Below are positions 1 to 4,188 of a stretch of 64,000 nt of DNA, piece by piece (the stretch's first letter is position 1; each line of letters starts with the position of its first letter). The stretch spans positions 310,001-374,000 of the forward strand of contig NZ_JAODIY010000009.1 in assembly GCF_026586665.1 (NCBI RefSeq), given 5' to 3'. A program made the translations under genes and the position numbers. The notes beneath the pieces are model-generated. The model was not told where the DNA came from, ran no database searches, and saw only the letters and a program-made list of their open reading frames with translations. This stretch comes from Halovenus rubra (GTDB taxonomy: Archaea; Halobacteriota; Halobacteria; Halobacteriales; Haloarculaceae).

Positions 1-107
1 GACATCGCACCACCACCAATCAGGTATACCGTGAGCGGTTCAGATAGCCCGCCCCCGATTCGCTGGAATTCGTTCTCGATGTACTCACGTCCGAATGTTG
101 GTCTCAT
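1..107 (-). CDS. Nucleotidyltransferase-like protein (AbiEii/DUF6036-like), 5' part only
   Basis: Only the first 36 codons are in the window; the gene continues past base 1. The N-terminus starts MRPTFGREYIENEF and reaches a V-Y-L-I-G-G-G-A-M stretch. This hydrophobic strand followed by GGG/A resembles the start of minimal nucleotidyltransferases of the AbiEii/DUF6036 kind, where GG/GS precedes the catalytic Asp residues; those residues lie outside the window. The ATG (105-107) overlaps the TGA of the regulator upstream in an ATGA arrangement, so the two are very likely translationally coupled. The family call is an inference from about 36 residues and the gene context. Confidence 0.55.
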   Translation of the reverse strand, partial: MRPTFGREYIENEFQRIGGGLSEPLTVYLIGGGAM

Positions 108-1030
108 TGTGGTAGTGGCACCTCGTAGTCAGCCGCCAGCTCCTCGAACTCGTCCCACTCTGGGAGCCGGTCGTCATCAACCTCGCCGCCCGTCTCGAGG
201 TAGCGGAGCAAGGCGTCGATTTCGTCTTCGAGGCCATACTTCGCCGCCTGCTCTCGGAGGTCCGCCTCGTCGACGTCGACGTGGCTGAGTAGGAGGAGAC
301 AGTACGAGCGGTGGCGGCTTCCGTCGTCGATCAACAGCGTGTGACAACACAGCTCCGCCGGCGAGACGGCGTCGATCTCCTCGGAGTAGATGTAGTATCG
401 ATGGCCGGTGAGCAGGAACTGGAGGTCGAAGGCCGCGAATTGAGCGAGGCCAGTTTCGTGGAACGTCTCCGCGTCGATCTCCGTCTCGGTCTGAGCGAGG
501 AATTCGTCGTAGTCTTCCCAGAGAATCGTGCCCTTCGGGGCGACGGCTTCGAGGCGGTGACGATGTAGATGATGTGCGAGTTCACGTGCGAACTTGTGGA
601 GGCGGTCGAAATCGGCGTTGAAGTCATAGCAGCCGTCGGCCGTCCGGACGAGACCACGGTCACGAAACCGCTTGAGGACGCGGCTGACCGTGTTGCGGTA
701 GTTGTCGCTCCGGGCGGCGATCTCGGAGACGGTTCGGGGCTTGTCGAGGTAGTACAGCACCTCGAGTGCTTTTCCGGTCAGCAGCCCGGGGAACTCGATG
801 TGGGAGTGCTGGCGGACGAGGTCCCGATAGAGTTCGACGGCGCGAGCATCCGATGGGACGGCTCGTTTTCGACGGCCATCGCGTTCCGTGTAGACGAGCC
901 CCTTCTCGACGAGGTCACCGACGGCACGAGAGAGATAGCTCTCGCTGTGGTCGAGCTTCGTCGCGAGTTCGGAGATCGTGTCGCCGCGGTCGACCGTTGC
1001 GAGGACTTCGAGTTCGATGCGCCGGAGCAC
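104..1030 (-). CDS. Double winged-helix transcriptional regulator, candidate antitoxin
   Basis: 308-aa haloarchaeal regulator with no membrane segment. A first winged-helix DNA-binding domain spans about residues 1-60 (ISELATKLDHSESYLSRAV recognition region). A second spans about 85-135 (VSEIAARSDNYRNTVSRVL). A C-terminal half of unknown fold follows. The GTG start at 1030 fits a TATA element about 30 bases upstream, giving a nearly leaderless mRNA. Its stop overlaps the start of the nucleotidyltransferase-like gene by four bases. A wHTH protein directly upstream of an NTase is the arrangement of AbiEi-AbiEii type IV toxin-antitoxin pairs, in which the wHTH protein represses its own promoter. 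The DNA-binding role is well supported; the antitoxin role is inferred from context. Confidence 0.75.
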   Translation of the reverse strand: MLRRIELEVLATVDRGDTISELATKLDHSESYLSRAVGDLVEKGLVYTERDGRRKRAVPSDARAVELYRDLVRQHSHIEFPGLLTGKALEVLYYLDKPRTVSEIAARSDNYRNTVSRVLKRFRDRGLVRTADGCYDFNADFDRLHKFARELAHHLHRHRLEAVAPKGTILWEDYDEFLAQTETEIDAETFHETGLAQFAAFDLQFLLTGHRYYIYSEEIDAVSPAELCCHTLLIDDGSRHRSYCLLLLSHVDVDEADLREQAAKYGLEDEIDALLRYLETGGEVDDDRLPEWDEFEELAADYEVPLPQ

Positions 1031-1044
1031 AGTGTAACTCAGTA

Positions 1045-1070
1045 CGAAACTACTGTATAAATAAGTTTCG
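1045..1070 (-). promoter_or_regulatory. TATA box inside an inverted repeat, likely autoregulatory site
   Basis: On the minus strand a TATA element (1054-1064) lies about 27-30 bases upstream of the GTG at 1030. It is framed by a perfect 7-base inverted repeat, CGAAACT at 1045-1051 and AGTTTCG at 1064-1070, centred on the TATA box. A protein bound here would block TBP. The wHTH regulator just downstream is the obvious candidate ligand (inference). Confidence 0.5.
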
Positions 1071-1168: not shown

Positions 1169-1492
1169 ATGTCCTACGAACCCCCGACCCCACCGGCGAA
1201 CCTCCCGACGGAGATCGTCAACAGGCTCAACGAGTCAGACCCGGAGCAGCTCCGAGAAGTTGCGACGTACGCTGAGGCGCTCGCCGAGCATAAGGAACGA
1301 GAGGCCCGTCTCGAGAAGTCACCAGATCAAGAAGAGGTCGAAGAGCGACCAGATGATCTTCCGGACGACGTCCCTGCCAAAGCGACAATCACGATCAAGG
1401 AGATCAACGACAATCGCTACTACTACTGGCAGTGGCGGGAGGGAGAGAAGATTCGTTCTCAGTACAAGGGCCCGGCCGACCCGGACGAGTAA
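1169..1492 (+). CDS. DUF6788 family small protein
   Basis: 107-aa acidic protein typical of a small haloarchaeal family often found on mobile or accessory DNA. The N-terminal half is Pro/Glu-rich and helical (residues 1-65). The C-terminal signature is a beta-rich stretch N-R-Y-Y-Y-W-Q-W-R-E-G followed by I-R-S-Q-Y-K-G-P, the recognisable part of the family. There are no cysteines and no membrane segment. It stands alone between the divergent regulator and a decayed IS element. Function is unknown; the aromatic strand suggests nucleic-acid or protein contact, but that is speculation. Confidence 0.7.
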   Translation: MSYEPPTPPANLPTEIVNRLNESDPEQLREVATYAEALAEHKEREARLEKSPDQEEVEERPDDLPDDVPAKATITIKEINDNRYYYWQWREGEKIRSQYKGPADPDE

Positions 1493-2547: not shown

Positions 2548-3303
2548 ATGAACGGAATACAAGACGGAGTTGCGGTCGTCACTGGTGGTGGATCTGGAAT
2601 CGGCCGACAGTCGTCGCTGCGGTTTGCCGAGGCGGGAGCGAACGTCGTTGTTGCTGATGTGGATAAAGAAGGCGGCCACAGGACAGTCGATTTGATCGAG
2701 AGTAACGGCGGCGAAGCGACGTTTGTCAAGACAGATGTCACTGACTCAGAGGAAGTCGCCGCGATGGTACAGACAGCAGTTGACGAGTATGGTGGGCTAG
2801 ACTTCGCACACAACAACGCCGGCATCGCCGAAGAGGGCGCCCGCCTCGCGGAGTACGACGAGGCGGAGTGGGATCAGATGATCGACGTAAATTTGAAGGG
2901 AGTCTGGCGGTGTCTGAAAGCTGAAATACCGGAGATGATCGAACGGGGAGGGGGAGCAATCGTCAATACCTCCTCAGTCGCCGGTGTGAGCGCGAACGGG
3001 AGCGCACACTACGCTGCCAGTAAACACGGTGTAATCGGGCTGACTCGACGGGCGACGGTCGACTATGCTGACGATGGAATCCGCTTCAACGCAGTCTGTC
3101 CGGGTGTTATCGACACGCCAATGGTCCAGCAGGCGGGGGAAGACAACACTGAGGAGTTAGAGCGTATCACTGCAGGGATCCCTGCGGGACGGCTCGGTGA
3201 GCCAGAAGAAATTGCCGACACCGTCGTCTGGCTCTGTTCAGAAGACGCCTCGTACGTAATGGGACAACCAATCATCATCGACGGTGGATTGCTGGTGCAG
3301 TAA
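2548..3303 (+). CDS. Short-chain dehydrogenase/reductase (SDR, FabG-like)
   Basis: 251-aa classical SDR, the usual length. It should catalyse NAD(P)H-dependent oxidation or reduction of a carbonyl or alcohol in the cytoplasm; the substrate cannot be read from sequence. Cofactor motif T-G-G-G-S-G-I-G is at residues 12-19, D37 after the second strand suggests NAD preference, NNAG is at 89-92, and the catalytic Ser142/Tyr155/Lys159 set appears in S-S-V-A-G and Y-A-A-S-K. The C-terminus I-I-I-D-G-G is typical. I chose ATG 2548; an in-frame GTG at 2533 would add five residues. The gene is isolated between IS relics, so transfer is plausible. Confidence 0.85.
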   Translation: MNGIQDGVAVVTGGGSGIGRQSSLRFAEAGANVVVADVDKEGGHRTVDLIESNGGEATFVKTDVTDSEEVAAMVQTAVDEYGGLDFAHNNAGIAEEGARLAEYDEAEWDQMIDVNLKGVWRCLKAEIPEMIERGGGAIVNTSSVAGVSANGSAHYAASKHGVIGLTRRATVDYADDGIRFNAVCPGVIDTPMVQQAGEDNTEELERITAGIPAGRLGEPEEIADTVVWLCSEDASYVMGQPIIIDGGLLVQ

Positions 3304-3680
3304 ACTACCCTACCCTACTTCGCCCGGAGGCAATGGCCCCGCTCGCTCGTTGAGGGTAGGGCCTCTGCCTCGAGTTAGGCTGAACCGCCTCGGACAGTAG
3401 CCCCGAGCAGTTCACGTCACCATACCTTCCTCCAGACGGTCACTCTTTACTAACCGCTACGTAGTCGAGATACAACCTCTTGCGCGGGCAGCCTCAGCGT
3501 GAGTCTATCGGTAAGCCCTAGAATGTACTGGGTTTATTCGTGTTCACTTAGGAGACAAACCGCGTGACAGTAGCGGCTTATCGGGGCTACTCTTCGGAAG
3601 GAATACGCAGGTGTCGAATGTGCACAGCGATACCTCCTCTTAGAAGGCCGATGAAACATACAGAGTGGATCCATCACTAG
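3304..3680. other. Intergenic region with one long inverted repeat, no gene
   Basis: No coding sequence is supported in these 377 bases. Immediately after the SDR stop, CCCTACCCT (3308-3316) and AGGGTAGGG (3353-3361) form a 9-base inverted repeat with a 36-base spacer that could terminate the SDR transcript. The next bases resemble the non-coding flank of a haloarchaeal IS200/IS605-type element, but no transposase or TnpB fragment could be confirmed on either strand. Confidence 0.4.
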
Positions 3681-4188
3681 CTACTGACATTTCTCGAACG
3701 CGAGAACGAACAACTCACTGTCGAGACAGCAATCAGTGCCAACAAAGCACTGGAACGGATCGACGACTCTCCCCCCGATTGCATCGTTTCGGACTACAAT
3801 ATGCCCGGTATAGATGGCCTCGAATTCTTGCAGGCCGTCCGGGAGAGGTATCCTGACCTCCCGTTTATTCTTTTCACCGGTGAGGGCAGCGAAACAGTCG
3901 CAAGTGACGCCATTGCTGCTGGTGTGACCGATTATCTCCAGAAGGGGAGCGGTACCGAACAGTACGAACTCTTGGCCAACCGGATCCGCAACGCCGTTCG
4001 GGCCCGTCGCGAGGACGAGCGGGCAGACAGACAGGAACAACTGATGCGGTTGACAGAATTTGCAGGCGACACCGACGGGTTCGAACTGGACAGAGAGATC
4101 AACACCATCCTGCTGACCGCTGGCACCCGGCGAATCATCGGCCGTCCCGAGATGTTCGAAATCACTCTGCAGGAGGCGCTTGAGTCGT
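3681..4188 (+). pseudogene. Truncated response-regulator receiver plus start of a sensor domain
   Basis: In frame after a TAG at 3678, the sequence reads as the last two thirds of a haloarchaeal receiver domain: F-L-E-R-E-N-E-Q-L, then D-C-I-V-S-D-Y-N-M-P-G-I-D-G with the phospho-acceptor Asp, F-I-L-F-T-G-E-G-S, and D-Y-L-Q-K-G with the conserved Lys. A linker and the beginning of a PAS-like segment (L-T-E-F-A-G-D-T-D-G-F, then I-I-G-R-P-E) follow. The first acidic pocket is missing at the 5' end. Similarity stops at about 4188, where a pair of hairpins begins. The frame stays open to 4340 with unrelated residues. An in-frame ATG at 3801 could start a 179-aa product, but it would lack half the receiver. 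Confidence 0.75.

Follow-up and report, generated by a model that had tools for sequence, protein, structure and literature searches.

Within the 64,000-nucleotide stretch of the Halovenus rubra genome that was analysed (hereafter, the window), a regulator gene (positions 104–1030, minus strand) overlaps a nucleotidyltransferase (NTase) gene that begins at positions 1–107 (minus strand), and we consider, with a probability of roughly three in four, that the two genes constitute an autoregulated toxin–antitoxin (TA) module for plasmid maintenance or defence, a reading drawn from sequences and structural models. The module resembles AbiE in its logic and MenAT in the fold of its predicted toxin, with a different antitoxin family. 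The HVO_2833_C domain of the regulator was found in 182 of the 292 sampled Halobacteria genomes, relatives of the NTase occur on at least 94 plasmid records from many genera, and no functional description of HVO_2833 or DUF6036, the NTase family, was found in the literature searched. If the reading is correct, one of the commonest gene pairs of haloarchaeal plasmids is a TA module, and it would provide a sharply defined archaeal repressor–operator system with the TATA box at its dyad, which would be a useful genetic tool.

The regulator is a 308-amino-acid open reading frame with a GTG start. It matched the Pfam model HVO_2833_C (PF24271) with 160.8 bits against a curated cut-off of 34, and two N-terminal winged-helix stretches of the MarR/IclR type precede this domain. 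The AlphaFold model (pLDDT 94) places the first winged helix–turn–helix (wHTH) at residues ~3–60, the second at ~80–137, a long helix at 139–163 and HVO_2833_C at 187–304, which confirms the divergent, double-wHTH regulator of the original prediction. HVO_2833_C was present in 47/47 members of the regulator family and no AbiEi family was among the matches listed; a single AbiEi_4 match, below threshold, was obtained in one paralogue. The pairs C229 H230 and S242 Y243 are invariant within the HVO_2833_C domain. The median dN/dS of paired regulators was 0.12 and that of the NTase was 0.11, indicating purifying selection on both.

The window edge cuts the NTase gene, and positions 1–107 hold codons 1–35, including the GG of motif I. 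The search past base 1 that had been recommended revealed an intact gene of 267 amino acids (L008:10107..9304, to G000:C48:309304; minus strand) with the catalytic motif G31G32-x13-D46ID48. The catalytic aspartates, whose absence would have spoken against the original prediction, are thus in place: D46, D48 and a third, D97, are among the residues invariant in all 45 aligned NTases (G31, G32, D46, D48, D97, K140, R145, D148 and D151), which are 29–94% identical to the window copy. A lysine precedes the first motif-II aspartate in the window NTase, and D148 is preceded by D in this protein and by R in the paralogues. The NTase matched DUF6036 with 35.5 bits (cut-off, 23.6), as did 36 of the 45 members of its family; the AbiEii Pfam model was absent among the families listed, and the AbiEii match in PADLOC reached an E value of 0.0045 at best. 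The AlphaFold model (pLDDT 91) combines an NTase core with helices and ends in a winged helix (~203–265), and HTH models also matched the family (at least 20 members). The suggested comparison by structure prediction gave matches for one protein of the two: the four best Foldseek matches of the NTase were all MenT1/MenAT1 chains (E = 2.8e-5 to 4.7e-4; a partial match, with a TM-score of 0.42 by query length), and the whole regulator had no match among solved structures at E ≤ 0.001. An NTase with 45% identity was also observed in a Nanohalarchaeota metagenome-assembled genome (L240), and this sequence suggests that the NTase spread to DPANN symbionts of haloarchaea.

The operon is bicistronic, with the regulator first and the NTase second. 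The ATGA overlap originally noticed with an NTase-like gene was verified at positions 104–107 (minus strand; TCAT on the plus strand), where the TGA of the regulator meets the ATG of the DUF6036 NTase, and it was found in nearly all paired loci, also at 43–55% identity, with a 1-nt overlap in a few. The TATA box of the operon (1056–1061; TTTATA on the minus strand, TATAAA on the plus strand) is centred ~28 nt before the GTG, and because of this distance the transcript is probably leaderless.

A nested palindrome of 50 bp (1033–1082, no strand) surrounds the TATA box and ends two bases before the GTG. Its inner arms, CGAAACT (1045–1051) and AGTTTCG (1064–1070), are separated by a spacer of 12 around the TATA box, and its outer arms, TGTAAC (1033–1038) and GTTACA (1077–1082), share the same dyad centre, 1057.5. 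The perfect 7-base repeat originally noticed around the TATA box is therefore real, and it forms the inner half of this predicted operator, the outer arms having been missed. On its own, a 7-base inverted repeat is unremarkable (the window contains 55 perfect ones with spacings of 8–16 vs. ~35 expected under uniform composition), so the significance of the operator lies in its conservation across promoters. Across the promoters of close relatives (n = 88), a mean of 14.2 of 20 arm positions were complementary, vs. 5.1 ± 2.0 at random centres, and strong conservation covered the 53 bases that precede the start codon, falling off markedly upstream of them. These promoters have the consensus TGTAACA-N5-CGAAACTT-N10-AAGTTTCG-N5-TGTTACA, with a single dyad centre that falls inside the TATA box, 27 bases ahead of the start codon. 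A subfamily with ~50% identical regulators keeps the same centre with other letters (GTTGCA...CGAA...TATA...TTCG...TGCAAC), and four symmetric positions were changed in both partners, i.e., the changes are compensatory. Among the more divergent copies, many again have their best dyad at the TATA box, and the paralogues on contigs C37 and C10 are two of them (TGTAAAC/GTTTACA in C10, by inspection); in some other members of this deep subfamily, the best-scoring dyad was away from it. With the regulator first, the overlap and a conserved, covarying predicted operator, the AbiE-like architecture proposed at the outset is supported.

The distribution of the two genes among the 292 Halobacteria genomes is asymmetric. 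The window-type regulator was detected in 141 genomes and the NTase in 134. Of the 116 close copies of the regulator, 60 were followed on the same strand by an NTase match (in a few cases, remains only), and in 56 of those 60 the match coordinates put the two genes directly next to each other, no more than 6 nt apart; the remaining 56 copies had no NTase match. Conversely, a full-length NTase without a regulator was not found among the best 70 NTase places in these genomes: six of them lacked a listed regulator, and all six were fragments or were placed at the end of a contig or record. On the circular plasmid NZ_CP053943, the two genes of one pair are separated by nothing but the point at which the record happens to begin. 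A regulator that occurs without the NTase, and not the reverse, is the pattern expected of an antitoxin and a toxin, and a predicted toxin gene that is not maintained without its regulator gene agrees with the general definition of TA systems. One locus counts against the TA reading: on the plasmid L149, an IS200/605-type TnpB gene (2682–3968) separates the regulator from an intact NTase. The same regulator–NTase spacing of 1384 bases was observed in L150, a plasmid of Halobacterium hubeiense, and a similar separation in L205.

Broken NTase remains lie behind several intact regulators, and paired and orphan regulators are interleaved in a quick tree in which most forks are weakly supported (17 changes for the pair label and 16 for the orphan label), suggesting that the NTase was lost repeatedly. 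Since the orphan regulators are intact, remain under purifying selection (dN/dS = 0.17) and still carry the operator, the regulator is of use without the NTase. Their upkeep fits an antitoxin retained against other plasmids, but it fits a plain plasmid regulator as well.

Pairing with different genes in other genomes, which the original prediction named as counter-evidence, was half borne out: about half of the close regulators lack the NTase and some adjoin convergent VapBC or Mrr-like genes, but the co-oriented overlapping partner, wherever present, is the DUF6036 NTase. Other stable co-oriented partners were sought and rejected, the genes downstream of orphans being convergent VapBC, Mrr-like, HTH or unrelated genes; the same-strand TA pairs near the orphans L022 and L032 do not overlap the regulator. 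Convergent VapBC genes adjoin orphan regulators in 11 loci (L009:3430-4164, L110, L113, L115, L118, L119, L121, L126, L127, L128 and L134); they are 88–98% identical across genera and lie at a fixed 41 nt from the regulator (52 in one). An Mrr-like endonuclease gene, so named by reading its sequence, lies in convergent orientation behind orphans of the deep subfamily, always 36 nt away (L015, L016, L017, L029, L031 and L036–L039).

The H. rubra genome itself contains a second close regulator, on contig C32, which is 90% identical, lacks an NTase and has nearly the same operator. A convergent VapBC adjoins it, with Orc1/Cdc6-like and PolB genes nearby, and this orphan might act in trans on the window pair, by repression or neutralisation. 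Contig C32 also holds a candidate HTH/NTase pair (L009:519-1885) consisting of a 224-amino-acid HTH protein and a 231-amino-acid NTase with an ATGA overlap.

The surroundings of the pair are of a plasmid type, as in Haloplanus and in Natrinema pJ7-1. Among 48 full-length loci, a small divergent gene was present in 42, an Orc1/Cdc6 homologue lay within 4 kb in 36, and genes for the anti-restriction protein ArdC and for PolB were found in 26 and 18, respectively. The window copy is intact and retains only the small gene, the regulator and the NTase, without Orc1 or PolB. The small gene (1169–1492, plus strand; 107 amino acids) encodes a protein with no Pfam or NCBIfam match. Upstream of it lies a second inverted repeat, with 10-base arms (TTAACCAACA-N21-TGTTGGTTAA, 1114–1154), which differs from the operator and was kept in the 16 relatives compared, both paired and orphan; it may be the operator of the small protein or an element of a plasmid origin. 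Past the small gene, positions 1681–2440 were seen by eye to contain apparent insertion-sequence remains, with an IS6-like transposase frame interrupted by stops, in the place that Orc1/Cdc6 occupies in relatives. There was no tRNA integration site beside the pair in L008. Because no regulator relatives were found in phages, and the search of viral contigs for the NTase gave pattern matches with no confirmed relative, a viral origin is not supported.

This neighbourhood raises the alternative that the operon serves plasmid replication and copy control, in which case the regulator would govern plasmid genes near Orc1/Cdc6 and PolB, and the NTase would be an accessory of plasmid upkeep, not a toxin. 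The frequent proximity of Orc1/Cdc6 and PolB speaks for this explanation, as does the persistence of orphan regulators with intact operators. However, a half-site search of the H. rubra genome returned only the promoters of the two close regulators, so a wider regulon was rejected; moreover, the window copy has stayed intact in the absence of Orc1 and PolB, and the lack of regulator-free, full-length NTases is at odds with a mere accessory. We therefore regard copy control as rather unlikely. A further explanation, that the NTase is a nucleotidyltransferase of the antibiotic type under a substrate-sensing repressor, agrees with an operon of one repressor and one enzyme, with the presence of drug-modifying enzymes among Pol-beta NTases, and with the weak match of another NTase on contig C32 to an aminoglycoside family; yet the window NTase matched neither the aminoglycoside nor the lincosamide nucleotidyltransferase families, and its K, R and DxxD residues, C-terminal wHTH and best fold match to MenT1 make this explanation improbable.

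According to the TA reading, the window locus would represent a plasmid-type TA operon from which the remaining plasmid backbone is missing. The two-wHTH HVO_2833_C protein would act as both antitoxin and autorepressor. Because the operator has four arms and each monomer two winged helices, we infer a regulator homodimer with one winged helix bound to each arm; by the symmetry of the site, it would cover the TATA box and block TBP. Translation of the NTase would be coupled to that of the antitoxin via the ATGA overlap. The NTase would be the toxin; by analogy with MenT1, which extends tRNA 3′ ends (PMC11375011), its activity would be the addition of nucleotides to an RNA that the cell cannot do without, most likely at the acceptor ends of tRNA. 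Once the antitoxin gene or protein was lost, the toxin would be freed, resulting in plasmid addiction and perhaps abortive infection. As a TA module, the pair could be of type II, type IV or another type. A broader proposal, which we regard as possible rather than probable, is that these pairs form a class of plasmid TA systems that spans the haloarchaea and is distinct from AbiE; in this class, a double-wHTH dimer would seal the TATA box within a four-armed palindrome, the wHTH of the toxin may tune repression, and toxin-stripped orphans beside VapBC or Mrr-like genes would serve as anti-addiction shields against related plasmids.

Among known systems, AbiE is a type IV TA system whose antitoxin binds inverted repeats in its own promoter and relieves the growth inhibition caused by the toxin with no direct contact between the two. 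It is similar in that a wHTH regulator precedes an NTase within a single operon with a long palindromic promoter repeat, and the GG..DxD, K, R and DxxD motifs, the set needed for AbiEii toxicity, are common to AbiEii and the haloarchaeal NTase (PMC3985639). The regulator-first bicistronic order, the Lys/Arg of motif III and the DxxD of motif IV are all as in AbiE. However, AbiEi has one wHTH and a COG5340 C-terminal domain, whereas the present regulator has two wHTHs and HVO_2833_C; AbiEii belongs to DUF1814 and the present NTase to DUF6036; motifs I and II of AbiE follow hG[G/S]-x15-DhD with a motif-II Arg, whereas the spacing here is x13, as is general in Pol-beta enzymes; and the arms of the promoter repeat are nested here, with an archaeal TATA box at their centre. 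Since neither the antitoxin family nor the toxin family is that of AbiE, we did not file the pair under AbiE, and that part of the original prediction does not hold; a divergent AbiE member whose antitoxin has drifted beyond recognition, although compatible with the gene order, overlap, NTase motifs and autoregulatory-type operator, is very improbable given these family and spacing differences. HEPN/MNT (type VII) systems likewise pair an NTase with a second gene, but in those systems the antitoxin is the NTase, whereas in the present module the NTase is the partner that is not found alone, and there is no HEPN protein. The haloarchaeal plasmid pairs automatically named "MarR family regulator" and "DUF6036 family nucleotidyltransferase" are the same system as the one described here. 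MenAT1 (MenT1/MenA1) of Mycobacterium tuberculosis shares with it the fold of a Pol-beta NTase toxin, the DxD motif, the catalytic lysine and the two-gene module, and by its Foldseek matches and motifs the NTase has the predicted fold and the catalytic residues of the MenAT superfamily; it differs from MenT1 by its extra C-terminal winged helix, and its partner is a 308-amino-acid, double-wHTH predicted repressor that is not MenA1-like.
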